From the NCBI GenBank assembly GCA_006386115.1, contig VFIW01000031.1:62001-126000 (forward strand): a stretch of 64,000 bases of DNA, given 5' to 3'. The notes beneath the pieces are model-generated. The model made no database searches, had not been told where the DNA came from, and saw only the letters and a list, made by a program, of their open reading frames with translations. A program made the position numbers and the translations under genes. This document shows, in pieces, positions 6,626 through 64,000 of the stretch. Numbering within the stretch: position 1 is the stretch's first letter; each line of letters opens with the position of its first letter. This stretch comes from Globisporangium splendens. Taxonomy: Eukaryota; Oomycota; Peronosporomycetes; Pythiales; Pythiaceae.

Positions 6626-6746
6626 GACGAAAATTCTACTGTGGAGTTACTCGTAAGAGCATTCCTGAACTATTACAGCACCAGCGTGTAAGGGACCTGC
6701 TCCGGCTCATGTTAATCACCTCATTGATCGTGATCAAACACCAGTC
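6626..6746 (-). repeat. 3' tail of A1, diverged copy of the array-wide tail
   Basis: 121 bp homologous to the tail in every other unit but with several substitutions. In the small hairpin, CCC-GAAA-GGG of the other units (plus strand) is CTC-GTAA-GAG here (6650-6659): a paired C:G to T:A change that keeps the stem. No poly(A) follows the tail. Confidence 0.8.
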
Positions 6747-6976
6747 TTTTGATACGTGTATTTCAGCCAATATAGAATCCCACTGTGGGTGTAGAATGTA
6801 AGCTAATTCGGAAAGGGGAGCTAGCAATGTAGGTACGCATGTATGTAAAAATAGACAACAAATGCCGTCCAGTGGCACCCTTGTCGTGGTATGTCGATTC
6901 AATTGGGCTTGAGAAGAATGGTTTCCTTAATGGAGGGTGTTCTTGCGATCACATGGAGGATCTGGGAGCTTCGCTA

Positions 6977-8666
6977 CTACGTCGTGCGATGCGATAGACC
7001 TCTCGCAGAGGTGCTGGTGATGCGCTGCTGTGTTCCCCCCCTGGTTAGCGGACGCGGTGTGGTAGACTGGTATCTCGCTCGTTCGCGGACTGTGCGATCG
7101 TGGTTGCATCGTTCCTGCGCGTCTCGGCGTCTTGGTTCGTCGCTGGCTTGGCTCGGTCGCTGTCTTCGGCTGGTGGCGCGCTCTTCGTTGGTCACGTTGG
7201 CTGCGGTGGTGGCGCCGCGGCGGCCCTCATCGTGGCGCGCTCGTCTTTGTTGTTGCTGCTGCGCGTCTCGGGGTCTTGGCTCGTCGCTGGCTTGGCTCAA
7301 CCCTGCGTTGATGGTGTTAGGTTGCGCCGGCGTCGGTGACACCGCTATCGTGGCGCCTCGTTCGCGCCGAATTTGCTCTCCGCCGGCATGGAGTCGCCAT
7401 ATGCGGTGACTGGACTGGATTGCCGTAGCTGAGCCACGGCGATTGAGCTGGTTGGCAGTACGTTTGTGGAGGCCGAGATGCTCTGTGAAGATCTTGTAGT
7501 TGCGGGTCCCGACCCCACCCAGCGAGCCGAACACGATCGCCGATAGGTGCACTTGCCATCCTTGACGCTCAAGGTGAAGTTTTATAGGCGCGTACTTTCG
7601 TACCTTGTGTTCGTACGCGAAGGCAAGGTTGGAGCTCACCGGGTCATCGCCTGATTGCTCCTCGAAGGAGATCGACAGATCGGATACGTACACCGTGCCA
7701 GTGGCGTGGTCGAACAGTTGAATATCGGGTCGGTAGGCGGGACCAGTGAAGCTAGCCACGGGTTCGTCGTAGTGGACCGTGAACCTGCCTTGTGAGCTCG
7801 TCACCACAGGAGAGACTGCGTTCTTGATGAGCTGGAGGATGTTGTCGTGGCGGCCGCGGATTGCCTCTTCGTTTCCGGGGCAATGGTTGATGACGTGTGG
7901 CAGCGTCTCCTGGTGGGAGCATCCTGGGTGACGACAGACTGCGTTGCGGAGCTGCCGCATGCGTTTTAGCACCGCACGGGTGCAAACAAGGTTGAGGCGA
8001 GCGCGAAGAGCAAACCGGAATTCAGCATCACTGAGACCTCCGCCTCGGGACAGAAAAGCGCTGCCGAAGCCGCCGTGAGCGCGGACTGTGTGGCCTTGGT
8101 CCGAGGCCGCCTTCCATTCCGCAAGCGCGAGCATTTTCATGTGTTGCTTGAGTTGTCGTGCTACGGTCTTGTGGCGCAGTGCGTGTCGGTGGTGCGGGAC
8201 GCGTAGTTGGAGCATCTTTTCTGTGGCAACTCCTTCGGGTGAAGTAAACACCTCGGTGGTGAATTGTAGGTTGTAGGAGCGCAGATGGCGTTGCACATCA
8301 ATCCACATGTAGCCAATGTCGCCATGGGTCCGCTTCACGGTGGCATGCGGGGAATCAGGCAACTTGTAGTTAAGAAATAGCTGAATGAGTTCTTCGTCCT
8401 TCTCTCGCCAATGCGCCGCATCGAGTTTAAATCGCAGCTGGATTATTTGGATGACTTGAGCACGGGCAATTGCTCTCACGCTAGGGTCCCTTGAGTGCAG
8501 CATCTGCCAGCCGTGTGCGATTTGGAGTGCGGCATGAAGGTTCTTGAGCTTGACGAAGCCCAGTCCCCCACTAGACTGCGGCGCGAAGAACGCTGCGCTG
8601 AGTGAGACTGGCGGCAGGCAGAGCACGTGTCGAAGTCCCTTGGCCAGCGCTGAGTCGAAGCCCTGG
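6977..8666 (-). pseudogene. Family A retrotransposon protein of A1, C-terminal part (CCHC, endonuclease, basic tail)
   Basis: Continues the A1 protein after the chromovirus insertion, at about residue 1202 of 1763. It includes the end of the RT/thumb region, the knuckle CRHPGC...HVINHC, and the restriction-like endonuclease with YRPDIQLFDH, a following VSDLSISFEE acidic strand and a KVRKYAPI lysine helix. The C-terminal tail is rich in Arg, Gln and Thr and contains repeats of a DEPRPRDAQ-type unit. It stops at 6977. The frame is open, but it is separated from its start by 8.1 kb, so no full protein can be made from this copy. Confidence 0.85.
8662..8666. repeat. Target site duplication CCTGG, left copy
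   Basis: Five bases directly left of the chromovirus 3' LTR, identical to 16786-16790. The uninterrupted A2 copy has this CCTGG once (near 35333-35337), which proves the duplication. Confidence 0.95.
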
Positions 8667-9274
8667 TGTAAGAGGCTATCCGAGGCAGCCTCAAGCACAG
8701 CACGCACGCTTGCGCTTGAGAGGAAGACTTGAGAGGAACTTGGCAAAAATGCAACTCAATTGAAATGAGCTTATGGTTCCTGGCACTACATATAAAACAC
8801 CACTAGGACTCCTACAGGTTTTATGCATAAAACCTAAACATGCAGAAATAAAACCTATGAATCTGATGTATAAAACCTTGGGTACACTGAGGTTGAACCT
8901 ACAGGATCTTCGAGAAACTTGAACTTGAAATACTGCGAAGATTCCCTGCGAAGTGACTGGCTCATGCCACTCACTTCAGGTGGTAGAGACACGTCCGTCT
9001 CGTCAACAGTGTTGTTTCCCCAAGTAGGAACCATCATTCACATGTCTCGAGTACTGTTGTGCGCAATCACGCCGAATCTCAATGATTGCGAGCGACCAAC
9101 ACTCAACTCAGACACAGATTGCTCTGACGTCAGACGATGACGTCACCTGTGCATGTGGGGATCACTTTATGTGCTTCACCCAATATCTTCGCACCCACAA
9201 TGCACTTCCACAAGGTGGTGTGTGACACACACAAAGAGCCACCTTGCATGTAATGGCAGCCTTAGCCCATTACA
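8667..9274 (-). repeat. Chromovirus 3' LTR
   Basis: 608 bp, starting TGTAAGAGG and ending CCCATTACA on the plus strand, so TG...CA ends in both directions. Contains paired TGACGTCA sites and several ATAAAACC-type repeats. On the plus strand it lies directly upstream of the antisense coiled-coil frame. Confidence 0.93.
9125..9145. promoter_or_regulatory. Paired CRE-type palindromes in the 3' LTR
   Basis: TGACGTCA at 9125-9132 and again at 9138-9145, starts 13 bp apart. This is the consensus site of CREB/ATF-type bZIP factors. The same pair at the same spacing recurs in the other LTRs of the window. It sits about 210-230 bp before the plus-strand ATG at 9351. Confidence 0.6.
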
Positions 9275-9287
9275 TCATCCCTCCCTT
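9275..9287 (-). other. Polypurine tract of the chromovirus
   Basis: On the minus strand AAGGGAGGGATGA abuts the start of the 3' LTR, the expected place and composition for the plus-strand DNA primer. Confidence 0.7.
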
Positions 9288-9697
9288 AAAGTTCCATCAC
9301 GGACTCTACTTCTTTCGGAAGAGGCACCCGCTCTCACTTTCCAATTGACCATGAAGCGATCAAGCGACCAAGTGAAGCGCGAAGAACAGCCCGAGCCGAA
9401 GCGGCAGCGGACGACTCCCGGCTTGTACGACATCTCCACTATTCGCAAGAAGCGTGGTGACGTCGATTCTACAAGGAGTTGTTCTTCCTCTGGCGCAAGA
9501 TGTCTGGCAGAGACGATCCAGGCAAGTCCAGCACAGCGAATCTCGAGTCGTGGAAGACGTTTGTCCGACTCGAGAACGAGCATCTTGTCGAGCGTTTGCT
9601 AGGGAACCTAGGAGGCACGCTCGAGAACGACCATAAAGAGCTTGGCTCTCGTCATTCTAGTGCTCGCAAGAGCACTACAAGCTCTGCTCGTAGCTGT

Positions 9698-9702
9698 GAA
9701 CC
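9698..9702. repeat. Target site duplication GAACC, left copy
   Basis: Immediately left of the solo LTR; identical to 10355-10359. Confidence 0.9.
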
Positions 9703-10108
9703 TGTAAGAGGGCGCTGTTCACAACAGTCCCTCAAACACGGCACACACGCTTGTGCCAGAGGAAGCGATCTCCCGACTTGGAGGGAGGAAGGAGACTTGA
9801 GGGCTTGGAGGAAAATTTGCAACTGAATTAAAAATGGTTATGGTTCCTGTCGCTACTTACAAATGAACCCCAAGGGCTCCTACAGGTTTTATAACTAAAA
9901 CCTAAACATACACAATAAAACCTATGAATCTGATATATAAAAAACCTTGGGTACACTGAGGTTGAACCTACGGGATCTTCTAGAAGCTTGAACTTCAAGT
10001 CTTGTTTAAAATCCCTGCAAAGTGATTGGCTCGCGCCACTCACTCCAGGTGGCAGAGACACGTCGGTCTCGTCGCCAGTCCAGTTCCCCAAGCAGGAACC
10101 ATCACTCA

Positions 10109-10184
10109 GTACTTGATTAGTACATGGATGTCATTGCTCTGTACTGATTAGTACATGGGAACAACATTCTGCACTGATCAGCAC
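10109..10184. repeat. Three spaced palindromic units in the solo LTR
   Basis: GTACTTGATTAGTAC (10110-10124), GTACTGATTAGTAC (10141-10154) and the weaker GCACTGATCAGCAC (10171-10184) are about 30 bp apart, each followed by a short spacer. They are absent from the other LTRs in the window. Possibly protein-binding sites; no factor can be named. Confidence 0.5.
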
Positions 10185-10196
10185 AGAGAACACTCG

Positions 10197-10217
10197 TGAC
10201 GTCATCGAATGACGTCA
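10197..10217. promoter_or_regulatory. Paired CRE-type palindromes in the solo LTR
   Basis: TGACGTCA at 10197-10204 and 10210-10217, with the same 13 bp start-to-start spacing as in the host element's LTRs although the surrounding sequence has diverged. Confidence 0.6.
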
Positions 10218-10349
10218 CACGTGCATGTTGGGACTGTATTACCGTAATCCCTTTGTTATTTGTGTCTCCACAATGCACGCTGAAGGTGGTGTGTGACACA
10301 CTAAATCTGGGGACAGATCCACCTTCATGTAATGGCTGGTTGTGGCCCA

Positions 10350-12452
10350 TTACAGAACCACGTCGGGAACATCAGACTGAAGAGCCTCTCGAGGTTCCCA
10401 CGTGTCTGAGTCCGGTGGAGAGCCAAGCCACCGTACTCTGTAGAAGCGTTGACGGTTCGACGACTTCTCTCCTCGACGACGAGTCGATCGATCCTCATGA
10501 TCGACTATCGACTCAACGATCCAACGGCGCTCTCCCTGATGATCGATCAGAGGAGGTGGGGTTGAACGCGAAAACGATTGAGCGACTCTGGAAGTGGAAG
10601 AGTGCTCACCGCGCTCAGATCGAGGCTCTTGAAGTTCGCAACGCGGTACTCGAAGACCGGTGCGAAAGCCTCGAAGACCGGTTGAAGGAGCAGGAGTCGA
10701 AGATCGACTTGCTGCTCGATGGTCTTGCCCAGCGTTCGGCAATGGAGTCACGTTTCGAACAGAGGTCCGAGAAGATTCAAGTCGAGCTTGAACGACTCCA
10801 GAAGGCTGAGAAAGCCCGTGATGCGTATCGCGAACGTCTACTGCGCTCTGTGGAAGAGGCAGGGGTTTCTCTTGAGATACTTCGGAAGGAGTATCATGGT
10901 CGCCTTCTCGCGTTGGAGACAATAAAGGACGAGTCCTTTGATGTGCTTCAGCGCCTTTATGCCGAGAAGAAGCTCCATGGCGATGAGTTACAGACTCTTC
11001 GCGAGCTGGTGGAGCGACTTCAGGATCGACTTGATCGTCTGGCAAAGGCTCTATAGGGTTCGCTGACCCACTTGGAAGGTAAGGCTTTAGTCTACCTACG
11101 TAGAACGTAGGGTGTAGTCGCATGCGTTTAGGAATGTCTAGTGTGTAGGCATCACCATTGCATTTAACCACCTTGAACGGTCCAATGAACCTTGGCAGAA
11201 GCTTCGAGCTTCCCAAGTTGGACACTGCATGTTCAGGCAGGTTCGCCGTGCTAAGCAATACAAGATCATTGATCTTATAAACTTGCTTGTTCTTCCTTCC
11301 GCTCTTGTCTGCTTGTTCCTTTTGCAGATCCTGAGCCTTCGCTATTGCGTCTCGAACAAACCTCACAACGGCTTGTCTCCTCACAATAAAGTCATCGACT
11401 TGCTGCTCTTCACGACTTGTTGGGTCGCCGAGGGGTTTCATCGAGTCAAAATTCGCTTTTAACTCTGTGACAGCATTCAGGTCATAAGACGACTTCGGCT
11501 TGTTTCCATGAGCCAGAGTCCCTCCCCCACTTAAGGTAGAGACCTCACCCATTATGGAAGCAGGCACTCGAGGATGAATGCCATAGCTCACATAAAATGG
11601 AGAGTGACCTGTCGAGACATGCGTGGAGTTGTTCAACGCAAACTCGGCAAGAGGGAGAAACTCACTCCACTCTCCGAAAGACGTCGCATAACTGCGCAAC
11701 ACGTCTTCCAGGACACGATTCACTCGTTCAGTTTGACCATCTGTCTCTGGGTGTGCTGCTGTTGACATGGATAGTTTCGTATCCAAAATGCCAAGCAGAG
11801 TACGCCAGAATCTGGATGTAAACCGAGTGTCACGGTCTGATACGATCTCTGAGGGCAGACCATGTAGGCGAAACACCACGTCTACAAAGACTTTCGCAGT
11901 CATCTCTGCCGAGATCTTGTCCGAGACCGGGGTAAGATGCACCATCTTACTGAATCGGTCCACAAACACCAGGACACCATTCCTGCGATGTTTGTCCCTT
12001 GGAAGTCCGAATATGAAATCCATACTCACAGACTTCCAACTGTCCTGAGGGACAGGTAATGAACGAAGTGGAGCCTGAGTAGAGCCAGATGGCTTAACTC
12101 TTTGGCACACTTCGCAAGTCCTCACATACTTGCGAACCCACTTGTACATGTGAGGCCAGTAGTAATCTCGAGGCAAGTTGAGGAACGTTTCCTCACGTCC
12201 GAGATGGCCACTCGAAGGACCGTCATGATACTCGTACAAGAGTCGATGGCGCAGACCTTCGTCGTTGGGGACAACGATCCTCGCTGGATCCCCTTCGTCA
12301 ACCGCATAATACAACAGCTCATTGTGCATGCTGTAACGGTGAACACGCGATCTTGCTCTTGATGGGAGGTTTTGGAGTGCCTTATCTGAGGGATTCTTGA
12401 AATACTTGATCAGTTCTTGACATGCTTCGTCTTGCTTGTAGCTCTCAGTGAT
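10350..12452 (-). pseudogene. pol: Chromovirus pol, distal part: integrase and chromodomain
   Basis: Follows the protease-RT-RNase H part in the same frame after one TAA (12453-12455). The first in-frame ATG is at 12329, but translation was presumably continuous. Contains the HHCC zinc-binding domain (ends TCEVCQRVK), the integrase core with SMDFIFGLP, SDRDTRF and TDGQTERVNR supplying the D, D and E residues, a GPF module (RFIGPFKVV...HPTFYVGRLKPY), a Ser/Pro/Arg-rich linker of about 175 residues, and a C-terminal chromodomain (RRWIVESIVDHED, FYRVRWLGSPPDSDTWEP). Chromodomains steer integration to marked chromatin. The present stop lies inside the solo LTR; the older end was only a few codons further. 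The linker is exactly the stretch opposite the antisense coiled coil. Confidence 0.85.
10355..10359. repeat. Target site duplication GAACC, right copy
   Basis: Immediately right of the solo LTR; identical to 9698-9702. Confidence 0.9.
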
Positions 12453-15046
12453 TTATTCTTGGACTGTGCTTGCCACTCCCGTAGCATTCGTGTTGACGTC
12501 TTCACAGAGTCGGCACGCTCCGTTCGTGTCGTCACTCTTGTTCTTCGGATCATAGTCCGGACGTCTTGACAAAGCGTCAGCAAGTATGTTGGACTTGCCG
12601 GGCTTGCAGTGTACAACAAAGTTATACTCAGCAAAGAAGGAAAACCATCTTGCCATTCTTTGCGATAGGTGAGGCGTCTTTACAGCTGTCCGCAGTGATG
12701 CGTGATCAGTGTAAATAGCGAACTGCTCCTCACCAAGCAAATAGACTCGGAACTTTGCCAATGCATACTTCATGGCCAAAAGTTCTTTGTCATGGACCGG
12801 ATAGTTCCTTTCTGCGGGCCTGAGTTGTCGTGATTGATACGACACAACTCTTTCTTTGCCCTCATCATCGTGTTGCATCAGTGCACACCCGATGGCATAA
12901 TCGCTCGCATCGCAGACTACATGGAACGGCTCCTCATGATCTGCGAGAGCTAGGACAGGAGCTTCTCTTAAGCTCTTCTTCGCTTCAGCAAACGCTGCCT
13001 GATGTTCCTCAGACCACTCCCACTCATTGTCCTTTTTCAAGAGACTCGTGAGAGGTTGCACTAGTGCTGCGTAGTTGCTTGTGTATTTGTGCAGGTAGTT
13101 TGCCAAACCCAACCACTGGCGTAGTTGTTTGACATTCTGAGGAATAGGCCAATCGTCAACAGCCTTGACTTTCTCGGGATCAGCTCGAACGCCATTCTTG
13201 CCAACAAAGCAACCGAGTACAGGGATCTCAGGGGCGAAGAAGACGCATTTCTTCAAGTTAGCGTATAATTTATTTTCACGCATAACCTGAAAAACTTGAC
13301 GAAGATGATCGGGATGAACATCAACATCCTTCTTCTTTCCCAAAGCCTTACTGTGAACGAAGATATCGTCAAAGTAGCTCGGTGCAAACTCTCTCAATGG
13401 ACGAAGTATATTCGTGACCATTCTGTCGAAAGTTGCTGGCGCGTTCTTCAGACCTTGTGGCATTACCATCCACTCCCACAGCATACCACTAGGGGTGCTT
13501 ACTGCTGTAAATGGTACATCGCTCTCACGCATACGAATCTGATAGAACCCATCTTTCAGATCGATCGCGCTAAAGACAGTGCTGCCAACCATTCCATCAA
13601 GGATCACATCCTTACGTGGAACTGGGGTCTGAGCAGGTATGGTCGCATCATTCAATTTGTTGAATGCATGAACAATACGCCAACCACCTGTGGCCTTCTT
13701 AACACAGAAGGCAAGACTACAGTGCGGAGACTTGCTCTCGCGCACATGGCCAGCCTTCTGTCGCTGCGCGAAGAACTCATCGATTGCATCAACTTGTTCC
13801 TTCGGTAGCGGCCACTGCCTTGTGATGCAGTACTTCGTTCCCGGAAGTACGTCTATCTCGTGACGAATGCCTCTGTCTTGCGGCAATTCGTCAGGCACTT
13901 TGTCTGGGAATATGTCCGCATATTCCTTGACAAGTCCATACACGGGGTTTGTCTTTAGAGCGTCCCACGACTGCTCGTCAAACCTTTCCTTCCGTGTCTT
14001 CTCATCTAACACTTCCGCAGTGTTGATGACATCGTCGGCAGCTTCATCGACGATCGCACAAATTTGCGAAATTTCGCCTTTCGCCAGGCTACGCTTGAGC
14101 GTCTTCTTGCTCATCAACGGCAAGGAAATCAATTCTTGAGCCAGACTTGGAGGATTTTCAACTTGTACGTGACGCACTATCTGGCTGTCACCTTCTTCAT
14201 TGTAGACTGCGACGTTCACATATTCTCTTGAAGTGGCTTGTTCTTGTCGCTTCACTTCATCTTCTGCCTTTCTTGTGTCTTGATCAGGGACGCTTGCAGA
14301 TCTTCGTTCTTCTTCGTCGGTCTTCTTGTCTTCTTTCCTTCTGCCAGAGCGGAACTCCACATCGCTCTTGGCTACAGGAGTAGTCTTTTTCTGGCGCCTG
14401 ACTACTCCACCTCCAGTGGTCTTCACGGGCTTGTCATTTGAGTGTGAGGGGCCATCGCACGCCTGACTCTCATTAGACACATCTTCCACAGAGGTATATG
14501 CCCAAATTACCTCTCTTGCTGCCAGGCAGCCGAGGTCTTCGTCGACTTGCTTGTCGACGCTGATCTTCTTCTTCTTCCAGTCAATGCTCGGTTGGTACCT
14601 TCTCAGCCAGGGCATTCCCAGAATCAGATCAAACTTGTCATCGAGGTCGAGTGCTATAAACTCGTCTTCGCCTCGGAAATCATCACATTCGATTGCCATA
14701 CGCAACACGCGCTTAGGCATCGTCACTTTCGATCCGTTCGCCAAGCGAACGATCATTTCCTTGTTTGAGTTAGGCAGGTCCAAACCTTGCCTTCTCACCA
14801 CTTGTGTGCGGACAAAATTGTTCGACGCACCAGTGTCTACAAGAGCCCGTAGAGGTTCTGAATAACCATCTACCTTAACCTTGTGGACTATCAAGGCTGG
14901 CTCTTGCTCGACATGCTCACATCTGTTCGCGGAAACTTCATGTGCATTGCGCACATCGGGGCAAGAGTTCTGCGCTTCCACGACATTCACAGAACTCTTT
15001 GTTCGCCCAGTAGGGAGCCCCGCTCCTACTGGTCGTTCCCGTTTTT
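12453..15046 (-). CDS. pol: Chromovirus pol, proximal part: protease, reverse transcriptase, RNase H
   Basis: Open in the -1 frame relative to gag from 15179; no ATG is at its head, so it is entered by frameshifting at 15041-15047. In order: aspartic protease (ALVDTGAS, DTGA at 14826-14837; ILGMPWL flap end), RT (FSAIDLKDGFYQI, MPQGLKNAP, catalytic YFDD at 13365-13376), Ty3-type RNase H (CDASDYAIGCAL, ending near LADALSRRP). These process the polyprotein and copy genomic RNA to DNA in virus-like particles. The frame ends at a TAA at 12453 in the connection between RNase H and integrase. Because the integrase frame follows in phase, this is most simply a nonsense mutation in this copy. Confidence 0.9.
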
Positions 15047-15049
15047 TGG
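15007..15049 (-). promoter_or_regulatory. -1 programmed ribosomal frameshift signal between gag and pol
   Basis: On the minus strand the gag frame reads CCA AAA AAC, giving the canonical slippery heptamer A AAA AAC (15047-15041). After an 8-nt spacer comes an 8-bp perfect stem, CCAGTAGG (15032-15025) with CCTACTGG (15014-15007). The gag stop (TAG, 15026-15028) lies within the stem. A one-base backward slip leads exactly into the pol frame, as AAA AAA CGG. This sets the Gag to Gag-Pol ratio. Confidence 0.88.
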
Positions 15050-16069: not shown

Positions 16070-16162
16070 TGTTTCTCACAATCGAACAGGGGTCTTGGAA
16101 TGTCCGCGCACGCTACACAAGCGGCCTATGCAGACTCTTGACTTGGTCGTTGGAAGGACTAC

Positions 16163-16174
16163 GAAGTGCTACCA
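16163..16174 (-). other. Primer-binding site, initiator-Met tRNA type
   Basis: Two bases after the 5' LTR the minus strand reads TGGTAGCACTTC. TGGTAGC is the complement of the CCA end of eukaryotic initiator Met tRNAs (compare Ty1 TGGTAGCGCC). Position fits exactly; the match beyond eight bases cannot be checked without the host tRNA. Confidence 0.6.
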
Positions 16175-16176
16175 GG

Positions 16177-16785: not shown

Positions 16786-16790
16786 CCTGG
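16786..16790. repeat. Target site duplication CCTGG, right copy
   Basis: Directly right of the 5' LTR; matches 8662-8666. Confidence 0.95.
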
Positions 16791-51328: not shown

Positions 51329-51449
51329 GACAAAAATTCTACTGTGGAGTTACCCGAAAGGGCATTCCTGAACCATTACAGCACCAGCGTGTAAGGGGCC
51401 TGCTCCGGCTCATGTTAATCACCTCATTGATCGTGATCAAACACCAGTC
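51290..51449 (-). repeat. Array junction B3/B4
   Basis: Head of B3 (hairpin 51301-51325) joined to the tail of B4 (51329-51449). Confidence 0.9.
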
Positions 51450-54400: not shown

Positions 54401-57400
54401 CAATAAACAGGTACGGGCTGAGCGGACAGCCTTGATAGACACCGCGGCCCCCCTGATGCACCGGGTCTGTTGTGCCATCGCGCGAGTCAACAATGAAGTA
54501 CGAGTCCGTGTAGATGTCGCGTACCACCTGCAGAAACGCGTGTGGCACGCCGAGCCTCTCGAGCACCTTCCACATGTACACCTGCGGCAGCGATCCAAAC
54601 GCGTTGCGCAGGTCGTACCAGACGACAAAGAGCTTCTTGCGAGTGCGCCGCGCTTGTTCGTACAAACTCGTGGCCACGAAGTTGTGTTCATTGCACCCGT
54701 TGAAAGAACGGAACCCTTTCTGCGAGAATGTGAACCTAGCGTTGGCATCCATCCAGCGCTGAAAACGCACTGCGAGGACACCGGCGTAGAGCTTGTACAC
54801 TGTCTGCTGGAGACAGATTGGTCTCCAATTGCTCGGGTTGCCGCGTTCACCCTTGCGCTTGTAGATGAGGCGTACGTAGCCGACTTTCCACAGCCTTGGG
54901 ACACTTTGGAATGTCCAGCACGCGTTAAATACTGCGTGCAAAAGGTCGAGCAGTTGGAGCTTAAAGCGCACGTAGACGTCATACGGGATCCCGTCAAGAC
55001 CTGGAGCCGACTGCTTATGCGCTCGATCGAGTTGGTCCTCGATGTCACCGCGCGCGATTGGCGCAGTCAGCAGTTCCATCTCATTCGCTGCGTTCGCCTG
55101 ATTGTCGATCGCCTCACGGAATCGCGCACCGCAAGCCGCATTAAAGTCAAAGTCGTCTGGCGGTGTCGCCTGCGTCTGGAAGTAGGCGTAGAGGTCACGT
55201 GGCTCGATCGGACAGCTGTTGTCACCACCATAGTTGTCGTTGGCGCCGGCATGGAGGATCTCGGACACACACTGGCGCTCATTGCTCATGAACAGTTGGC
55301 GAGTCGCCTGGCGCTGACTGGCGCGTTCGAGGCGCGCAACACGCCGCGCAGCCTTGCGCACAGTCTTCTTGGTGCTCGGCGAGGTCTTGTCGGCAAGGCG
55401 TTTGCTGGCGCTGAGTTCGTCGCGTGCGCTGTCGATGGCAAGTTGGAGGAGGGTCGGCCCTCCGTTCCTGCGCTTACGGCGTGGTCTGGATCGTGGTCTC
55501 GTGCTGGAGCCGTCGCGTCGGTTTCGTTTCGCGGTCGGCCGCGAGACGCTCTGTCGCGCGCCTGTCGCCCGGGCGGCAGCGTGCGGTGCTACATCGGCGA
55601 AGCCCGCCGTGCTGCGCGCGTTGGCGCGCTCGGCGTCACCAGTGGTGTCGCCTGGCTGAGTCGACAGCTTTGTCGCTGCTGTAAGAAGCTCGGAGAGCTC
55701 TGCTGTGATGGCTGTAATGTAGCCTTCCGCGGAGCGCCAGTCCGGCGCATCCGTGATCTTGTCGGCCATTCTTCGAGCCAGCGTTTGAATCTGTTGCTCG
55801 AGTTTGCTCTGAAGCGGTGGAGCGAGTCGTGGTACGCGAAGACGCGGCTGTCGCAGCGGTACTACTCCTGGGCCAATCTCGAGCACGGGGAAGATGGTGC
55901 CACCGTCGCGGTCTGCGTTGGCAGCGTCGGCTTCAGCGTCGGGGTCGGGGTCACCTAGGTCCATGCGTACATTATCACTGTCATTGTCCTGGTCTTGGTC
56001 TTGGTCGCCGGTGGTCGAATCAGTCTCCATGGGGACAGGTCCATCCGGAGTCGGTGGCGTTCCGTACGTGCCGGGCCAGTGCCAGCACTGCGCGGCGTCA
56101 CCTGGTGATGTGTGCTTGGCGCATACGGCCACGCATTTACAGAGATCCAATGCTCTGTTGGCGAGTCGGTCTGCGTGGGAATTACGCAGTCGGTCGATGT
56201 GCTTGAGCGCATACGACTCGAACTCCTGGCACGTCGCGTACGCGAGGTCGCGCAGCGGCCGTAGTTCTTTTCCGCAAGCAAACATGCCCTTGATTTGCTC
56301 GATCACGAGCTTCGAGTCGCCCTCGATGCGGACATGCTTGACGCCATGATGGACAGCGCACAGCAGGCCATCGATGATAGCGTTGTACTCTGCCGTGTTG
56401 TTTGTCGAGGCGCAGTCGGCGATGTAGCGGTAACTCGTCCAGAAGATCTTGCCGTTTGGCCGAGTGAGCGCCGCACCGGCACCCGCTGGTCCTGGGTTCC
56501 GGCGGCAGGCGCCGTCGAAACGAAGTTGCCATGGAGCAACGATCGTACCTCCGAACGGAGGCTCGTCAGCAGCTGCTACTGCTGCTTCTACTGGGCGCGA
56601 TGCTGGGACTAATGCGGCCGTTGCAGGTTCGTCTGGTCTCGGAGCTGGTCGTGGTGGTCTCAGGTCTGCTGCTGTTGCTGCTGGAAGATCTGGTCTCGGT
56701 GCTGGTTCTGCTTCGGCTGCTGCACGTCGTTCTGGATCTGCTGCTGGTGCGACTGCAGTGGCTGTCACATTGGTTGTGACCATCTGCCCGTCGTCGCTGT
56801 CGTCGTCGGAAAGCATGGTCGTGTCGTCGATATTCGCAATGGCGTCGTAAAACTCGTCTTCGTCATGGGAGTCCATGTCGTGGTCGTCGGTCGGTGCTGG
56901 AGCTGTCGAAGGCGCGTGAGTGCGCAAGAGAGCATCAACGTTGGCTGCGGCACACGCGGTGACGTGCGCGTGCCATGAGCGCGCGTCCGTGAGGAACGCG
57001 ATGCAGCTTGGGCAGGTGCGCGGGTAGCGCCCCTGCGGTGCAAGCGAGAGAGAAGCTTGCGGTGGTGTGTCATCCACGTGCACTCTCGTTCCCGAGGCGG
57101 TGCACACGGGCACACCAGCATTTCCGTCCATTTCCTCGTCCTCATCCGCGACCGCTGATGCGGCCGCTGGCGCTTGCCGATCTGGTGGTTGTGGTGCGTT
57201 GGTGTGGTCGTGCCACTCGTCGCAGCGCCCAGAGTGAGCAAAAGCGTCGAGACGGCTGCCGAACAGTGCCGAGCATGGACACGTGGCTTGGAACCAGTCC
57301 TCGAAGACCGAGGTCCGGTGGGCGCTGCGGCGGTGCGCCACGAGCGCGCCGTAATGGCGGAACTCGTCGGCGCACGCCGCGCACCCGAACCGCGAATCGT

Positions 57401-57703
57401 TGTGGCGGAAGATCGACATAAGCGGACCGCGCGCGGCGGCGCCGTCGTCAGCGACGTCAGCGTCGTCGTCCGCGGGAGCTCGAAGCCGCATGGTCGGGGG
57501 GGGGCGCACACGCCGCGACCAGTCGTTTCACCGGCTGAGCTGCACACTCGCGCGCGTGTGTGAACACGCACGTATGGACACACGCACGCCTGCTGTAAGC
57601 AGGGCACACACAGGGCCAGAGGCTAGGCGCGAACGATGGGGTCGATAGGAAGGAGGGGAAAGCGAAAAGGGCGGTGGGGGCGGCGCACGCGCTCACCCCC
57701 GCT
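51329..57703 (-). mobile_element. Non-LTR retrotransposon B4 (family B), full length
   Basis: 6375 bp, open ORF, same layout as B1. Confidence 0.9.
51657..57491 (-). CDS. Family B retrotransposon polyprotein (one extra Gly in RT)
   Basis: 1944 aa from the ATG at 57491. Differs from B1 by a three-base insertion near 54449 that adds a glycine directly before GVYQGCPLSP in RT motif B (HQGGRGVYQG), and by an Ala to Thr change shortly after (FIATLTP). All catalytic residues are kept. Variants GDTTGD, HAGANDN and QVYMW link it to B1, but DKTLVRG and TPTAAEM link it to B2/B5. Confidence 0.9.
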   Translation of the reverse strand: MRLRAPADDDADVADDGAAARGPLMSIFRHNDSRFGCAACADEFRHYGALVAHRRSAHRTSVFEDWFQATCPCSALFGSRLDAFAHSGRCDEWHDHTNAPQPPDRQAPAAASAVADEDEEMDGNAGVPVCTASGTRVHVDDTPPQASLSLAPQGRYPRTCPSCIAFLTDARSWHAHVTACAAANVDALLRTHAPSTAPAPTDDHDMDSHDEDEFYDAIANIDDTTMLSDDDSDDGQMVTTNVTATAVAPAADPERRAAAEAEPAPRPDLPAATAADLRPPRPAPRPDEPATAALVPASRPVEAAVAAADEPPFGGTIVAPWQLRFDGACRRNPGPAGAGAALTRPNGKIFWTSYRYIADCASTNNTAEYNAIIDGLLCAVHHGVKHVRIEGDSKLVIEQIKGMFACGKELRPLRDLAYATCQEFESYALKHIDRLRNSHADRLANRALDLCKCVAVCAKHTSPGDAAQCWHWPGTYGTPPTPDGPVPMETDSTTGDQDQDQDNDSDNVRMDLGDPDPDAEADAANADRDGGTIFPVLEIGPGVVPLRQPRLRVPRLAPPLQSKLEQQIQTLARRMADKITDAPDWRSAEGYITAITAELSELLTAATKLSTQPGDTTGDAERANARSTAGFADVAPHAAARATGARQSVSRPTAKRNRRDGSSTRPRSRPRRKRRNGGPTLLQLAIDSARDELSASKRLADKTSPSTKKTVRKAARRVARLERASQRQATRQLFMSNERQCVSEILHAGANDNYGGDNSCPIEPRDLYAYFQTQATPPDDFDFNAACGARFREAIDNQANAANEMELLTAPIARGDIEDQLDRAHKQSAPGLDGIPYDVYVRFKLQLLDLLHAVFNACWTFQSVPRLWKVGYVRLIYKRKGERGNPSNWRPICLQQTVYKLYAGVLAVRFQRWMDANARFTFSQKGFRSFNGCNEHNFVATSLYEQARRTRKKLFVVWYDLRNAFGSLPQVYMWKVLERLGVPHAFLQVVRDIYTDSYFIVDSRDGTTDPVHQGGRGVYQGCPLSPYLFIATLTPLMFVLDGMKSEHGVSLAAGNPECTSAYADDLKIFAKTATGIRALHGAVLEFLQWTRMEANASKCALMVSDAAADCESHNERLDLSIHDNVIPRLTGHDGYVYLGIEDGPDHARVRVVLQDTLRELTTDVIKLLQSPLAPWQIMRAIKSYVLSKLDYPLRHLRPFLSMFDGFDKTLVRGLKRLLQLPQTATTEFLYAPTSAGGLGLLPLRELYGALKITHGLQMLHSQDPNVRAIARGQLLTVIRKRFVLNEPHWTDREEEAIQMFLNSELAGSAFALKKKVSGDSASLWVDVATYLKTFELKLGTVNGEHLQLQVPHTQKALVPKEWGRQIKTHLRLRHLARWRTFQDQGKTARLHGGAGSAFLTRPSAVYDSSYRFAVRARLNQVDTRSALKRKHIVQNNRCRAPGCNDTETLAHVLHHCSFGADAIRVRHDESLQIIRHRVVAEQGRSRRSHQRLLIDATVPGMEDNDTSTSRSQTAQRPDVQLYDDNAMTASIVDLAVAFEDQATDDAATSPNFARVRAIKIKKYENIVRFLEYKGYTVHVGALVYGSLGSICSSNLEVYTDMLGMRKGVSRALERQLSARHVNFSHRIWKRHAIANGETRLLTRASAPARAATTNQQREDNCRNSADRIGTTPTAAEMATTTHRTQAICRDSARSNREQGPRPRPHPQQRPQATRSSTNRSNATLTRSPTRAATPATSTTATMQRSTTTDGQRHSGRGMEKPSAASRTPTGQGKSSSTRARGTDGNGVENGRQRQQHSTQERPRQIARTSATKASSTHPSAARDSSEPAMTATARKVSTTPRASGQTKERPGARRPTTNSDTRRRSRAPTTTATTDSYNRRRSRATTATVTATSQTRGPTPASASSNATTPARRRDTTRQARVPTERTQPKQPRTAAPAQTREKQ

Positions 57704-57824
57704 GACAAAAATTCTACTGTGGAGTTACCCGAAAGGGCATTCCTGAACCATTACAGCACCAGCGTGTAAGGGGCCTGCTCCGGCTCATGTTAATCACCTC
57801 ATTGATCGTGATCAAACACCAGTC
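57665..57824 (-). repeat. Array junction B4/B5
   Basis: Head of B4 (hairpin 57676-57700) joined to the tail of B5 (57704-57824). Confidence 0.9.
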
Positions 57825-60800
57825 AAATAAAAGTCTATTACCAAACGTTACCTAGCCGTTGCGGTCCACACCGCGTGGCATATCTGTCACACACTACTGT
57901 TGGTAGTTGTTGTGTCCGTGTCCCGGGATGTTGTGGGGATGGGGTGCGCGGTTGAGATGCTGTCGTAATGGTTGGGTTTGTGAGGCGATATCCTTCGTGG
58001 ATCTTGCGCTTCTGGTCGTGTCTCGACCATTCTATTGTTTCTCTCTCGTTTGTGCAGGGGCCGCTGTGCGCGGTTGCTTTGGCTGCGTGCGTTCCGTTGG
58101 GACTCGCGCCTGTCGGGTTGTGTCACGGCGCCGCGCTGGTGTCGTCGCGTTGCTGGAAGCTGAGGCTGGGGTCGGGCCGCGAGTTTGGCTCGTGGCTGTC
58201 ACTGTCGCTGTTGTTGCTCTGGATCGTCGTCGGTTGTAGCTGTCGGTCGTTGCTGTCGTTGTTGGTGCTCTGGATCGCCGTCGAGTGTCGCTGTTGGTGG
58301 TCGGTCTCCGTGCGCCTGGCCGCTCTTTGGTTTGACCACTGGCGTGAGGCGTAGTACTTACCTTTCTTGCAGTTGCCGTCATCGCCGGTTCGCTTGAGTC
58401 TCGAGCGCCGCTCGGGTGCGTGCTCGACGCTTTGGTCGCACTCGTTCGTGCGATCTGTCGAGGCCGTTCTTGTGTGCTGTGCTGCTGGCGTTGTCTACCG
58501 TTCTCCACTCCGTTGCCGTCAGTGCCACGAGCTCTGGTACTGCTGGACTTACCCTGACCTGTCGGTGTTCTGGACGCGGCACTGGGTTTCTCCATGCCGC
58601 GGCCGGAATGCCGCTGTCCATCCGTCGTCGTCGATCTTTGCATCGTGGCCGTTGTCGAGGTCGCTGGCGTAGTCGCACGTGTGGGCGAGCGCGTGAGCGT
58701 CGCGTTGCTTCGGTTCGTCGATGATCTGGTTGCCTGTGGTCGTTGCTGCGGGTGTGGTCTTGGTCTTGGCCCTTGCTCTCGGTTGGATCGAGCGCTGTCA
58801 CGACATATCGCTTGAGTGCGGTGCGTCGTAGTCGCCATCTCTGCCGCCGTCGGCGTGGTGCCAATGCGGTCGGCTGAGTTCCTGCAGTTGTCTTCCCGTT
58901 GCTGATTTGTCGTCGCTGCTCGCGCTGGCGCTGACGCTCGCGTCAGAAGCCTCGTCTCTCCGTTTGCAATTGCGTGTCGCTTCCAGATGCGGTGGCTGAA
59001 GTTCACGTGCCGTGCCGAGAGCTGCCGCTCTAGTGCGCGCGAGACACCTTTTCGCATCCCAAGCATGTCGGTGTACACCTCGAGATTGCTCGAGCAGATG
59101 GACCCAAGAGATCCGTAAACTAGTGCACCCACGTGCACTGTGTACCCTTTGTACTCTAGGAAGCGCACGATGTTCTCGTATTTCTTAATCTTGATCGCGC
59201 GGACGCGCGCAAAGTTCGACGAAGTGGCAGCGTCATCCGTAGCCTGGTCTTCGAATGCGACGGCGAGGTCCACGATGCTGGCGGTCATTGCGTTGTCATC
59301 GTAAAGTTGGACGTCCGGTCGTTGGGCCGTTTGACTTCTGCTGGTGCTCGTGTCATTGTCCTCCATACCCGGCACAGTCGCGTCGATGAGCAGCCGCTGA
59401 TGGGAGCGTCTGCTACGACCTTGTTCCGCCACCACGCGGTGTCGGATGATCTGCAGCGACTCATCGTGCCGCACACGAATAGCGTCGGCACCAAATGAGC
59501 AATGATGGAGAACGTGAGCAAGCGTTTCGGTGTCGTTGCAGCCTGGTGCACGACACCGATTATTCTGCACAATGTGCTTGCGCTTCAACGCGCTGCGCGT
59601 ATCAACTTGGTTGAGCCGAGCACGCACCGCAAAGCGATAGCTACTATCGTAGACAGCTGACGGCCGCGTCAGAAACGCGCTGCCAGCGCCACCGTGGAGC
59701 CGAGCCGTCTTGCCTTGGTCTTGGAAAGTGCGCCAGCGCGCCAGATGTCGGAGCCGGAGATGTGTCTTGATCTGCCGCCCCCACTCCTTGGGAACCAGTG
59801 CTTTCTGCGTGTGTGGTACTTGCAGTTGCAGGTGTTCGCCGTTCACCGTCCCTAACTTGAGTTCAAAGGTCTTCAGGTACGTCGCGACATCGACCCACAG
59901 AGAGGCCGAGTCGCCCGACACCTTCTTTTTCAGCGCAAACGCTGATCCAGCGAGTTCGCTGTTCAGGAACATTTGGATTGCTTCCTCTTCACGATCGGTC
60001 CAATGTGGTTCGTTGAGCACGAAGCGCTTCCGAATCACCGTCAGAAGTTGCCCTCGCGCGATGGCTCGCACGTTGGGATCTTGCGAGTGCAGCATCTGTA
60101 GACCGTGGGTGATTTTGAGAGCGCCATACAATTCGCGCAATGGTAGAAGTCCGAGGCCACCCGCCGACGTTGGCGCATACAGAAACTCGGTCGTCGCGGT
60201 CTGCGGCAGCTGCAGCAGCCGCTTCAAGCCACGCACGAGCGTTTTGTCAAAGCCGTCGAACATGCTGAGGAACGGGCGCAGATGGCGCAGCGGGTAGTCG
60301 AGCTTGGAGAGCACATACGACTTGATCGCGCGCATTATTTGCCACGGAGCTAGGGGACTCTGTAGCAGCTTGATCACATCCGTCGTCAGCTCACGCAGCG
60401 TATCTTGGAGCACGACACGTACGCGTGCATGGTCTGGACCGTCCTCAATGCCCAGATAAACGTAGCCGTCGTGGCCAGTGAGCCTCGGTATCACGTTGTC
60501 GTGGATCGACAGATCGAGGCGCTCGTTGTGGCTCTCGCAGTCCGCAGCAGCGTCTGACACCATCAACGCGCATTTGCTCGCGTTGGCCTCCATTCGAGTC
60601 CACTGCAGGAATTCAAGCACGGCACCGTGGAGCGCACGAATTCCAGTGGCTGTTTTGGCAAAGATCTTCAGGTCGTCGGCATACGCTGACGTGCACTCTG
60701 GATTACCAGCAGCCAGCGACACCCCGTGCTCGGATTTCATGCCGTCCAGGACGAACATGAGCGGCGTGAGCGCAGCAATAAACAGGTACGGGCTGAGCGG

Positions 60801-63800
60801 ACAGCCTTGATAGACACCGCGACCCTGATGCACCGGGTCTGTTGTGCCATCGCGCGAGTCAACAATGAAGTACGAGTCCGTGTAGATGTCGCGTACCACC
60901 TGCAGAAACGCGTGTGGCACGCCGAGCCTCTCGAGCACCTTCCACATGTACACCTGCGGCAGCGATCCAAACGCGTTGCGCAGGTCGTACCAGACGACAA
61001 AGAGCTTCTTGCGAGTGCGCCGCGCTTGTTCGTACAAACTCGTGGCCACGAAGTTGTGTTCATTGCACCCGTTGAAAGAACGGAACCCTTTCTGCGAGAA
61101 TGTGAACCTAGCGTTGGCATCCATCCAGCGCTGAAAACGCACTGCGAGGACACCGGCGTAGAGCTTGTACACTGTCTGCTGGAGACAGATTGGTCTCCAA
61201 TTGCTCGGGTTGCCGCGTTCACCCTTGCGCTTGTAGATGAGGCGTACGTAGCCGACTTTCCACAGCCTTGGGACACTTTGGAATGTCCAGCACGCGTTAA
61301 ATACTGCGTGCAAAAGGTCGAGCAGTTGGAGCTTAAAGCGCACGTAGACGTCATACGGGATCCCGTCAAGACCTGGAGCCGACTGCTTATGCGCTCGATC
61401 GAGTTGGTCCTCGATGTCACCGCGCGCGATTGGCGCAGTCAGCAGTTCCATCTCATTCGCTGCGTTCGCCTGATTGTCGATCGCCTCACGGAATCGCGCA
61501 CCGCAAGCCGCATTAAAGTCAAAGTCGTCTGGCGGTGTCGCCTGCGTCTGGAAGTAGGCGTAGAGGTCACGTGGCTCGATCGGACAGCTGTTGTCACCAC
61601 CATAGTTGTCGTTGGCGCCGGCATGGAGGATCTCGGACACACACTGGCGCTCATTGCTCATGAACAGTTGGCGAGTCGCCTGGCGCTGACTGGCGCGTTC
61701 GAGGCGCGCAACACGCCGCGCAGCCTTGCGCACAGTCTTCTTGGTGCTCGGCGAGGTCTTGTCGGCAAGGCGTTTGCTGGCGCTGAGTTCGTCGCGTGCG
61801 CTGTCGATGGCAAGTTGGAGGAGGGTCGGCCCTCCGTTCCTGCGCTTACGGCGTGGTCTGGATCGTGGTCTCGTGCTGGAGCCGTCGCGTCGGTTTCGTT
61901 TCGCGGTCGGCCGCGAGACGCTCTGTCGCGCGCCTGTCGCCCGGGCGGCAGCGTGCGGTGCTACATCGGCGAAGCCCGCCGTGCTGCGCGCGTTGGCGCG
62001 CTCGGCGTCACCAGTGGCGTCGCCTGGCTGAGTCGACAGCTTTGTCGCTGCTGTAAGAAGCTCGGAGAGCTCTGCTGTGATGGCTGTAATGTAGCCTTCC
62101 GCGGAGCGCCAGTCCGGCGCATCCGTGATCTTGTCGGCCATTCTTCGAGCCAGCGTTTGAATCTGTTGCTCGAGTTTGCTCTGAAGCGGTGGAGCGAGTC
62201 GTGGTACGCGAAGACGCGGCTGTCGCAGCGGTACTACTCCTGGGCCAATCTCGAGCACGGGGAAGATGGTGCCACCGTCGCGGTCTGCGTTGGCAGCGTC
62301 GGCTTCAGCGTCGGGGTCGGGGTCACCTAGGTCCATGCGTACATTATCACTGTCATTGTCCTGGTCTTGGTCTTGGTCGCCGGTGGTCGAATCAGTCTCC
62401 ATGGGGACAGGTCCATCCGGAGTCGGTGGCGTTCCGTACGTGCCGGGCCAGTGCCAGCACTGCGCGGCGTCACCTGGTGATGTGTGCTTGGCGCATACGG
62501 CCACGCATTTACAGAGATCCAATGCTCTGTTGGCGAGTCGGTCTGCGTGGGAATTACGCAGTCGGTCGATGTGCTTGAGCGCATACGACTCGAACTCCTG
62601 GCACGTCGCGTACGCGAGGTCGCGCAGCGGCCGTAGTTCTTTTCCGCAAGCAAACATGCCCTTGATTTGCTCGATCACGAGCTTCGAGTCGCCCTCGATG
62701 CGGACATGCTTGACGCCATGATGGACAGCGCACAGCAGGCCATCGATGATAGCGTTGTACTCTGCCGTGTTGTTTGTCGAGGCGCAGTCGGCGATGTAGC
62801 GGTAACTCGTCCAGAAGATCTTGCCGTTTGGCCGAGTGAGCGCCGCACCGGCACCCGCTGGTCCTGGGTTCCGGCGGCAGGCGCCGTCGAAACGAAGTTG
62901 CCATGGAGCAACGATCGTACCTCCGAACGGAGGCTCGTCAGCAGCTGCTACTGCTGCTTCTACTGGGCGCGATGCTGGGACTAATGCGACCGTTGCAGGT
63001 TCGTCTGGTCTCGGAGCTGGTCGTGGTGGTCTCAGGTCTGCTGCTGTTGCTGCTGGAAGATCTGGTCTCGGTGCTGGTTCTGCTTCGGCTGCTGCACGTC
63101 GTTCTGGATCTGCTGCTGGTGCGACTGCAGTGGCTGTCACATTGGTTGTGACCATCTGCCCGTCGTCGCTGTCGTCGTCGGAAAGCATGGTCGTGTCGTC
63201 GATATTCGCAATGGCGTCGTAAAACTCGTCTTCGTCATGGGAGTCCATGTCGTGGTCGTCGGTCGGTGCTGGAGCTGTCGAAGGCGCGTGAGTGCGCAAG
63301 AGAGCATCAACGTTGGCTGCGGCACACGCAGTGACGTGCGCGTGCCATGAGCGCGCGTCCGTGAGGAACGCGATGCAGCTTGGGCAGGTGCGCGGGTAGC
63401 GCCCCTGCGGTGCAAGCGAGAGAGAAGCTTGCGGTGGTGTGTCATCCACGTGCACTCTCGTTCCCGAGGCGGTGCACACGGGCACACCAGCATTTCCGTC
63501 CATTTCCTCGTCCTCATCCGCGACCGCTGATGCGGCCGCTGGCGCTTGCCGATCTGGTGGTTGTGGTGCGTTGGTGTGGTCGTGCCACTCGTCGCAGCGC
63601 CCAGAGTGAGCGAAAGCGTCGAGACGGCTGCCGAACAGTGCCGAGCATGGACACGTGGCTTGGAACCAGTCCTCGAAGACCGAGGTCCGGTGGGCGCTGC
63701 GGCGGTGCGCCACGAGCGCGCCGTAATGGCGGAACTCGTCGGCGCACGCCGCGCACCCGAACCGCGAATCGTTGTGGCGGAAGATCGACATAAGCGGACC

Positions 63801-64000
63801 GCGCGCGGCGGCGCCGTCGTCAGCGACGTCAGCGTCGTCGTCCGCGGGAGCTCGAAGCCGCATGGTCGGGGGGGGGGCGCACACGCCGCGACCAGTCGTT
63901 TCACCGGCTGAGCTGCACACTCGCGCGCGTGTGTGAACACGCACGTATGGACACACGCACGCCTGCTGTAAGCAGGGCACACACAGGGCCAGAGGCTAGG
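57704..64000 (-). mobile_element. Non-LTR retrotransposon B5 (family B), 5' end cut by the window
   Basis: 6297 bp visible; about 75-80 bp of 5' UTR and head are expected beyond the window. The ORF is complete. The array may continue to the right. Confidence 0.9.
58032..63863 (-). CDS. Family B retrotransposon polyprotein
   Basis: 1943 aa from the ATG at 63863. All three zinc fingers, RNase H residues, YADD, CCHC knuckle and RLE motifs are present as in B1. With ten Gs before the start codon, the upstream 5' UTR frame is open through it to about 63980, but only from non-ATG codons. A good candidate for a functional copy. Confidence 0.9.
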   Translation of the reverse strand: MRLRAPADDDADVADDGAAARGPLMSIFRHNDSRFGCAACADEFRHYGALVAHRRSAHRTSVFEDWFQATCPCSALFGSRLDAFAHSGRCDEWHDHTNAPQPPDRQAPAAASAVADEDEEMDGNAGVPVCTASGTRVHVDDTPPQASLSLAPQGRYPRTCPSCIAFLTDARSWHAHVTACAAANVDALLRTHAPSTAPAPTDDHDMDSHDEDEFYDAIANIDDTTMLSDDDSDDGQMVTTNVTATAVAPAADPERRAAAEAEPAPRPDLPAATAADLRPPRPAPRPDEPATVALVPASRPVEAAVAAADEPPFGGTIVAPWQLRFDGACRRNPGPAGAGAALTRPNGKIFWTSYRYIADCASTNNTAEYNAIIDGLLCAVHHGVKHVRIEGDSKLVIEQIKGMFACGKELRPLRDLAYATCQEFESYALKHIDRLRNSHADRLANRALDLCKCVAVCAKHTSPGDAAQCWHWPGTYGTPPTPDGPVPMETDSTTGDQDQDQDNDSDNVRMDLGDPDPDAEADAANADRDGGTIFPVLEIGPGVVPLRQPRLRVPRLAPPLQSKLEQQIQTLARRMADKITDAPDWRSAEGYITAITAELSELLTAATKLSTQPGDATGDAERANARSTAGFADVAPHAAARATGARQSVSRPTAKRNRRDGSSTRPRSRPRRKRRNGGPTLLQLAIDSARDELSASKRLADKTSPSTKKTVRKAARRVARLERASQRQATRQLFMSNERQCVSEILHAGANDNYGGDNSCPIEPRDLYAYFQTQATPPDDFDFNAACGARFREAIDNQANAANEMELLTAPIARGDIEDQLDRAHKQSAPGLDGIPYDVYVRFKLQLLDLLHAVFNACWTFQSVPRLWKVGYVRLIYKRKGERGNPSNWRPICLQQTVYKLYAGVLAVRFQRWMDANARFTFSQKGFRSFNGCNEHNFVATSLYEQARRTRKKLFVVWYDLRNAFGSLPQVYMWKVLERLGVPHAFLQVVRDIYTDSYFIVDSRDGTTDPVHQGRGVYQGCPLSPYLFIAALTPLMFVLDGMKSEHGVSLAAGNPECTSAYADDLKIFAKTATGIRALHGAVLEFLQWTRMEANASKCALMVSDAAADCESHNERLDLSIHDNVIPRLTGHDGYVYLGIEDGPDHARVRVVLQDTLRELTTDVIKLLQSPLAPWQIMRAIKSYVLSKLDYPLRHLRPFLSMFDGFDKTLVRGLKRLLQLPQTATTEFLYAPTSAGGLGLLPLRELYGALKITHGLQMLHSQDPNVRAIARGQLLTVIRKRFVLNEPHWTDREEEAIQMFLNSELAGSAFALKKKVSGDSASLWVDVATYLKTFELKLGTVNGEHLQLQVPHTQKALVPKEWGRQIKTHLRLRHLARWRTFQDQGKTARLHGGAGSAFLTRPSAVYDSSYRFAVRARLNQVDTRSALKRKHIVQNNRCRAPGCNDTETLAHVLHHCSFGADAIRVRHDESLQIIRHRVVAEQGRSRRSHQRLLIDATVPGMEDNDTSTSRSQTAQRPDVQLYDDNAMTASIVDLAVAFEDQATDDAATSSNFARVRAIKIKKYENIVRFLEYKGYTVHVGALVYGSLGSICSSNLEVYTDMLGMRKGVSRALERQLSARHVNFSHRIWKRHAIANGETRLLTRASAPARAATTNQQREDNCRNSADRIGTTPTAAEMATTTHRTQAICRDSARSNREQGPRPRPHPQQRPQATRSSTNRSNATLTRSPTRATTPATSTTATMQRSTTTDGQRHSGRGMEKPSAASRTPTGQGKSSSTRARGTDGNGVENGRQRQQHSTQERPRQIARTSATKASSTHPSGARDSSEPAMTATARKVSTTPHASGQTKERPGARRPTTNSDTRRRSRAPTTTATTDSYNRRRSRATTATVTATSQTRGPTPASASSNATTPARRRDTTRQARVPTERTQPKQPRTAAPAQTREKQ

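Follow-up and report, generated by a model that had tools for sequence, protein, structure and literature searches.

Retrotransposons that are specific for a small nuclear RNA (snRNA) gene have been described for U2. Kojima and Jurka (2015) observed complete U2 genes in place of the expected 5’ fragment, and explained them by deletion of that fragment; in the accessible part of their paper, the persistence of five strictly U2-specific families with about ten intact U2 genes was a surprise, and a gene body supplied by the element was not proposed (PMC4640811). U2 is again the target given in a 2017 survey of oomycete retroelements (PMC5348765). Here we describe a 64,000-nucleotide (nt) stretch of the genome of Globisporangium splendens, in which apparent relatives of these elements are stacked in the gene for U1. 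The whole stretch, C123:62001-126000 in an assembly of 53.3 Mb and 195 contigs, is called the window, and positions refer to it unless a contig is named. G. splendens is an oomycete (water mould) and a plant pathogen, and U1 is a small RNA required for splicing. We think it probable that two lineages of non-long terminal repeat (non-LTR) retrotransposons with a restriction-like endonuclease (RLE), relatives of the Utopia elements, target U1 between nt 10 and nt 11 and rebuild the gene on insertion.

Self-comparison and unit mapping revealed tandem units of two families, A and B, which were arranged head-to-tail, exclusively on the minus strand, and with exact joints. This agrees with a preliminary description made from the letters alone, and its unit lengths of about 5.80 kb (A) and 6.37 kb (B) were also borne out, as A2 and A3 measured 5,801 and 5,857 nt, and B1 to B4 6,372-6,375 nt. 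That description had counted at least eight units. The array was confirmed and turned out to be longer: B5 is cut by the window edge, a ninth unit, B6, follows outside the window, and next comes an intact U1 gene at C123:132422-132582. Exact unit counts are uncertain given about 14.6 kb per PacBio read in the published Illumina and PacBio hybrid assembly (10.2 Gb in 0.7 million PacBio reads; PMC7163027). Each unit begins with U1 nt 11-161, here called the body, followed by the 5’ untranslated region, an open reading frame (ORF) encoding RNase H, reverse transcriptase (RT) and a putative RLE, and a 3’ end that directly adjoins nt 11 of the U1 body in the following unit. Counted from the promoter side, the units are B6, B5, B4, B3, A3, A2, B2, B1 and A1, and the 5’ end is present in 9 of 9 units. 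The stack occupies 69-133 kb of the 438-kb contig. Its parts in the window are:

6610-6746, minus strand: stack tail, a diverged U1 body that starts at nt 11 and adjoins the A1 3’ end (RF00003 score of 43.6 bits, below cut-off)
6747-20671, minus strand: unit A1 with U1 body 20521-20671, split by a Ty3/gypsy element (unit mapping)
20672-27043, minus strand: unit B1 with U1 body 26893-27043; longest stop-free frame 1,955 codons
27044-33416, minus strand: unit B2 with U1 body 33266-33416; interrupted ORF with a longest stop-free frame of 1,501 codons
33417-39217, minus strand: unit A2 with U1 body 39067-39217; longest stop-free frame 1,812 codons
39218-45074, minus strand: unit A3 with U1 body 44924-45074; ORF 39234-44879 (P0001), RNase H at 411-533, RT at 909-1165
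45075-51449, minus strand: unit B3 with U1 body 51299-51449; ORF 45282-51233 (P0002), RNase H at 370-487, RT at 922-1170
51450-57824, minus strand: unit B4 with U1 body 57674-57824 (unit mapping)
57825-64000, minus strand: unit B5, cut by the window end; U1 body at C123:126048-126198 (unit mapping)

That A and B share their joint sequence had been seen before, but its identity had been missed. It is the host gene for the U1 spliceosomal RNA, which is 161 nt long in G. splendens: Rfam RF00003 matched at 8 of 8 joints of the window, five times above and three times below the curated cut-off (E-values 1.9e-16 to 1.1e-7). A genome search, in which 41 of 862 candidates were scored, gave 15 U1 matches in all. 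Two of them were intact, with 88.9 bits each and a complete U1 start, and both stand at the head of a stack with an element directly after them. The other 13 start at nt 11, immediately behind the 3’ end of an element. Conversely, the last 200 bases of B and A as queries gave 6 and 7 genomic matches, respectively, all at those 13 joints. Nt 11 was joined by 6 of 6 B ends and 7 of 7 ends of A or its variant A’, in three A’ cases after five diverged bases. The insertion site of both families is thus U1 nt 10/11 (13 of 13 3’ ends found), and not U2 nt 38/39. A genome-wide pattern search for U1 nt 1-38, with up to three mismatches allowed, gave matches solely at the two heads. Of the locations that had been considered for the array, the dedicated homing locus is the one that fits. 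The suggestion that new copies enter exactly at the 5’ end of a copy already present also fits, because that 5’ end is the U1 target. An ordinary array of U1 genes with an element in each gene was ruled out, since no promoter or spacer lies between a 3’ end and the next U1.

The U1 bodies were compared across both families and both loci. In 12 of the 15 copies, the sequence is the same from nt 11 to nt 161 and for a further 10 nt, and beyond this point A and B diverge. The remaining three are the C123 stack tail and two A’ bodies, one with a single substitution and one with a substitution and a deletion; the A’ variant stands above a B unit that carries the common body. The two intact heads, on C123 and C125, consist of a locus-specific promoter and U1 nt 1-10 with the first unit’s body behind them, and in the 1,400 bp upstream of nt 11 they have only the last 26 bp in common. 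Two readings in which the body does not belong to the element would account for such a pattern. In one, the cut in the top strand lies 161 bp downstream of the nick in the bottom strand, such that insertion duplicates U1 nt 11-161 plus 10 nt, the body is part of the target, and the upstream copy stays functional. This long target-site duplication would explain why the identity between A and B extends over exactly 161 nt and ends there, and why direct repeats lie on both sides of each element; 20-bp duplications are reported for reptile Utopia (PMC4640811). In the other, the RT, having reached the 5’ end of its own RNA, jumps to a precursor RNA of U1, captures the current host body and thereby restores the gene. 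Template jumping would account for the same body and the same short 3’ extension in A and B.

End-to-end jumping occurs with R2 enzymes and in U6-LINE chimeras, which speaks for the latter reading. U2 stacks of the same genome, read as pieces of about 3 kb around the junctions, bear on both. The genome contains 36 U2 matches, and the U2 stacks are larger than the U1 stacks. The junction TCTGTTCTAATCAG corresponds to U2 nt 39 and matches the Utopia site (PMC4640811). Three U2 copies are intact, all of them heads with an element after them; two share their flank (99.4%) and hence represent one of two loci, whose common upstream sequence is confined to the last 43 bp, including nt 1-38 (93%). Thirty bodies could be typed, 20 as P (including the one at L071) and 10 as Q, the latter from the body alignment. 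The untyped six of the 36 matches were C97:197 (motif outside the piece), C131:528026, C97:7817, C7:115712, C7:105472 and a weak match on C112. C131:547887, a candidate for a U2 tail, turned out to be an internally deleted P body. P bodies are distinguished from Q bodies by 36 alignment columns in 156 nt, chiefly in the last two stem-loops.

In 30 of 30 cases, the type of the body was that of the element following it. In contrast, the preceding 3’ end did not predict the body: bodies behind P ends are P in 13 and Q in 4 cases, those behind Q ends are P in 4 and Q in 6 cases, and three bodies are heads. Within the stacks, the type switches between neighbours in 8 of the 26 pairs in which both are typed. 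At the four Q-to-P boundaries, the P units are most closely related to units located elsewhere, and so are not one copied block. Scores against the U2 model were 69.7-74.1 for the Q bodies (n=10) and 72.2-74.2 for the listed complete P bodies without 5’ end. When four bodies were folded, one P and two Q bodies formed both stem-loops, with letters that differed in the third; the free fold of the divergent Q body L042 did not form both, although the Rfam alignment pairs it.

These results suggest that the U2 body is inherited with the element. A duplication would pass the old body upward, but the body tracks the element family even where families alternate. Together with the C123 tail, in which a stem is changed at paired positions and both the usual 3’ part and the 10-nt extension are missing, this makes the long target-site duplication unlikely. 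The A’ variant above a B unit with the common body also argues against it, but a later mutation would explain that equally well. Template jumping is very unlikely, because Q elements have Q bodies in 10 of 10 cases while 3 of 3 U2 heads are P-type, so that present heads cannot be the source, and because A’ carries a variant of its own.

The linkage of U2 body and element is the reason why we prefer carriage over both duplication and template jumping. In the gene-restoring insertion that we favour, the snRNA body would behave as the element’s own 5’ end, and the host would keep the promoter and the first nucleotides, 10 in U1 and 38 in U2. We infer that the body is carried through RNA and that insertion takes place at the head. 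Transcription would start at the host snRNA promoter and read through the snRNA body into the ORF. The endonuclease would nick the head U1 gene after nt 10, and the element RNA would be reverse transcribed from its 3’ end, via the ORF and the snRNA body, up to nt 1. The end of the cDNA could then pair with the nucleotides that remain at the site, or with homologous sequence of the body, resulting in a seamless junction; pairing of cDNA with the upstream target through co-transcribed RNA has a precedent in R1 and R2 (PMC2718515). The new head would again be a complete U1 gene, and the old head, having lost its promoter and 5’ nucleotides, would become a lower layer. Older copies would be pushed downstream, while the element retains a fresh target and promoter and the host retains U1. 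Insertions without a body would kill the gene and be purged, which would explain the full-length 5’ ends of the units. For both RNAs together, we consider it rather likely that retrotransposons took over the genes, and that the intact U1 (2 of 2 found) and U2 genes (3 of 3 found) combine the promoter and recognition sequence of the locus with the body of the topmost element. The junctions sit just behind the intron-recognising bases, for the 5’ splice site in U1 and for the branch site in U2.

Several observations weigh against gene restoration by the element. The A and B bodies are identical though their proteins are only about 40% identical, so U1 alone cannot show who owns the body. Identity that ends at one sharp boundary is also expected from a fixed duplication or from the copying of a precursor RNA, and element-borne bodies so alike in old lineages require exchange between elements. 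The U2 body is informative only in its 3’ half, the first ~60 nt being identical in P and Q. The Q bodies are confined to one stack, and no Q head is known. Furthermore, the Q units starting at L063 and L056 on C131 have 5’ parts within 1% of most Q units and 4% from L042, whereas their 3’ ends are diverged by about 15% (17.5% from one). These two are chimeric elements, and the exchange between elements that is seen here in the U2 stacks means that recombination shapes stacks, too. When compared with L063, L056 and L042, the deposited proteins P0007 and P0012 span the U2 body, matching the terminal part of one U2 element and the beginning of its neighbour; these gene models probably fuse adjacent elements.

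The chimeric Q units would also suit a reading in which unequal crossing-over or gene conversion of snRNA-element units is the main mode of growth, retrotransposition is rare, and restoration occurred only at the founding. The units are highly identical, and some neighbours are closest relatives, namely A2 and A3 and likewise B5 and B6, with 8 substitutions each. In addition, B1, B3 and B4 are set apart from B2, B5 and B6 by a few columns close to the 3’ end of B. However, full-length B units differ by 8-38 substitutions per pair over ~6.37 kb and thus are not mutual copies, and their pairwise distances have no block pattern or periodicity. The proposal that a block [A1 B1 B2] was duplicated into [A3 B3 B4] was unsupported, because B1-B3 and B2-B4 are not the nearest pairs.

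The second U1 locus argues against this reading as well. C125 carries an intact head U1, an A unit, and a B unit that a Ty3/gypsy element interrupts at nt 4366 of the unit. On C34, three A’ units, of which the topmost is truncated where the contig ends, lie above a B unit that is broken at the same nt 4366. The two contigs differ by 0.41% over 4,352 nt of the broken B unit and by 2.2% over the following 7,713 nt, and A and A’ differ by 6.2-7.0%. The simplest reading of these sequences is that C125 and C34 are homologous copies of one locus, in which different elements, A versus A’, were added on top of the same old B unit, i.e., growth occurred at the head. The U1 tail of this locus was not found in C34:1020001-1050000. 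A and B are both present at two loci with unrelated upstream flanks, and several distinct P units lie at the Q-to-P boundaries of U2. Amplification by unequal crossing-over alone, which had been offered earlier for the window, is therefore not favoured, and we regard it as quite unlikely to have been the main mode of growth. It may have contributed to the stacks.

The tail U1 of the C123 stack differs from the other bodies by substitutions and an unrelated 3’ part, its 3’ stem-loop is unrecognisable, and the usual 10-nt extension is absent. A paired change from C-G to T-A lies in the stem that the head folds as stem-loop 3. This tail is probably the displaced original host gene. It may also simply be a decayed copy, as the free fold of the whole tail body was not U1-like.

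The proteins of both families agree with the earlier assignment to two families of RLE-type non-LTR elements. RNase H (PF13456) lies upstream of the RT in both, and the best solved-structure match of the B protein was R2. The YADD, C..C..H..C and PD..D residues are invariant in six aligned proteins. We take the C-terminal C..C..H..C to be the zinc knuckle and PD..D to be the restriction-like endonuclease, motifs that were assigned by eye; a library match was obtained for neither. The A and B proteins are about 40% identical. Between A and A’, the ratio of nonsynonymous to synonymous substitution was 0.12 in the core, 0.39-0.41 in the first 400 codons, 0.66 in the C-terminal part, and 0.26-0.28 for the whole ORF; the values for the core and for the whole ORF suggest that selection acts on the element.

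In an RT tree of 48 rows (two further rows were dropped for short coverage), A, A’ and B grouped with two U2-site elements of G. splendens and with relatives from Phytophthora and Peronospora. This putative oomycete Utopia/NeSL group, whose rows from outside this genome are provisional Utopia relatives, had a support of 98/90 without and 100/100 with the Aphanomyces rows. [Pythium] brassicae (P0032) and G. polare (P0026) branched with A. A single clade of A, A’ and B was rejected among the 48 rows (p-AU 0.0001), a result to be read with caution because B is a long branch. With the six labelled G. splendens rows alone, one change suffices, with a support of 61/11. By these comparisons, A and B appear to be U1-targeting relatives of Utopia, and not Utopia by target. 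A search for protein relatives (7,984 candidates scored, 120 of 298 matches listed) contained, among the matches listed, a further G. splendens relative, P0036 on a contig of 741,032 bases, which is 37-44% identical to A, B and the U2 elements. Among the viral_contigs, relatives were confirmed neither for protein P0010 nor for protein alignment A1.

The surroundings of the C123 stack were also inspected. Two further features of the window are:

5018-5135, minus strand: U5 snRNA gene in the host flank past the stack tail (Rfam RF00020, 69.7 bits, cut-off 40)
8667-16785, minus strand: Ty3/gypsy element inside A1, with ORFs for gag, protease-RT-RNase H and integrase-chromodomain, and LTRs of ~0.61 kb

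The Ty3/gypsy element has a 5-bp duplication, CCTGG, on either side. Besides the U5 gene, the host flank contains an ORF at 48-2300 with a putative mannosyltransferase domain (PF11051). The array thus lies at an internal locus with host genes on one side, and a telomeric or centromeric position, which had been suggested, is unsupported; telomere repeats and centromere marks were not searched for. Among the best candidates scored for U5 (3 matches), U4 (1) and U6 (2), there were no stacks of copies lacking the 5’ end. The two sole U6 matches among these candidates, C122:24937-25041 and C122:43109-43213, lie amid the RT matches that C122 has on its minus strand. Numerous same-strand RT matches, about 7-10 kb apart and often near contig ends, occur on C34 (left end), C121, C188, C153, C111, C114, C122 and C125 (left end), and comprise the loci L001-L008, seven of which are mutually related. 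L001 encodes an RT with a weak match to an AP-endonuclease (below cut-off), and its best solved match was LINE-1 ORF2.

If elements indeed rebuild the gene that they enter, insertion would cost the host nothing, and this would explain how several strictly specific families persist in few essential genes; it would be a direct answer to the surprise voiced by Kojima and Jurka about the U2-specific families. Most of the length of two core splicing RNAs of G. splendens would then be inherited via retrotransposons, and elements could evolve and exchange snRNA bodies for the host. U1 would be added to the targets of non-LTR elements, and the stacks would represent a natural scarless insertion into an essential gene. 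In the open-access literature, which excludes subscription papers and preprints, we found no non-LTR element in U1 and no restoration of a target gene.

Other elements of small-RNA genes share single traits with A and B. SLACS and CZAR of the trypanosomatid spliced-leader genes insert just past the start of a small-RNA gene, near its promoter; to our knowledge, they make a short target duplication and form no stack headed by a restored gene. Keno (U2), Dada-U1 and Dada-U6 are likewise specific for snRNA genes (PMC4640811), but Keno has an AP-type endonuclease and Dada is a DNA transposon. R2 and R1 of the 28S ribosomal DNA are alike in target-primed insertion at one site of a host RNA gene, in the use of a host promoter by R2, and in the pairing of cDNA with the upstream target (PMC2718515). 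In contrast, they disrupt the ribosomal RNA gene and rely upon many spare copies. The closest match is Utopia of the NeSL clade with its oomycete families. Its description reports RNase H upstream of the RT and a strict snRNA-gene target, as in A and B, an RLE, which is putative in A and B, and likewise a low copy number, arrays, and snRNA genes that are intact upstream of elements and lack the 5’ end downstream (PMC4640811). Its site, U2 nt 38/39, is that of the U2 elements of G. splendens, whereas A and B differ from it in their target, which is U1 and not the U2 reported there (PMC4640811).

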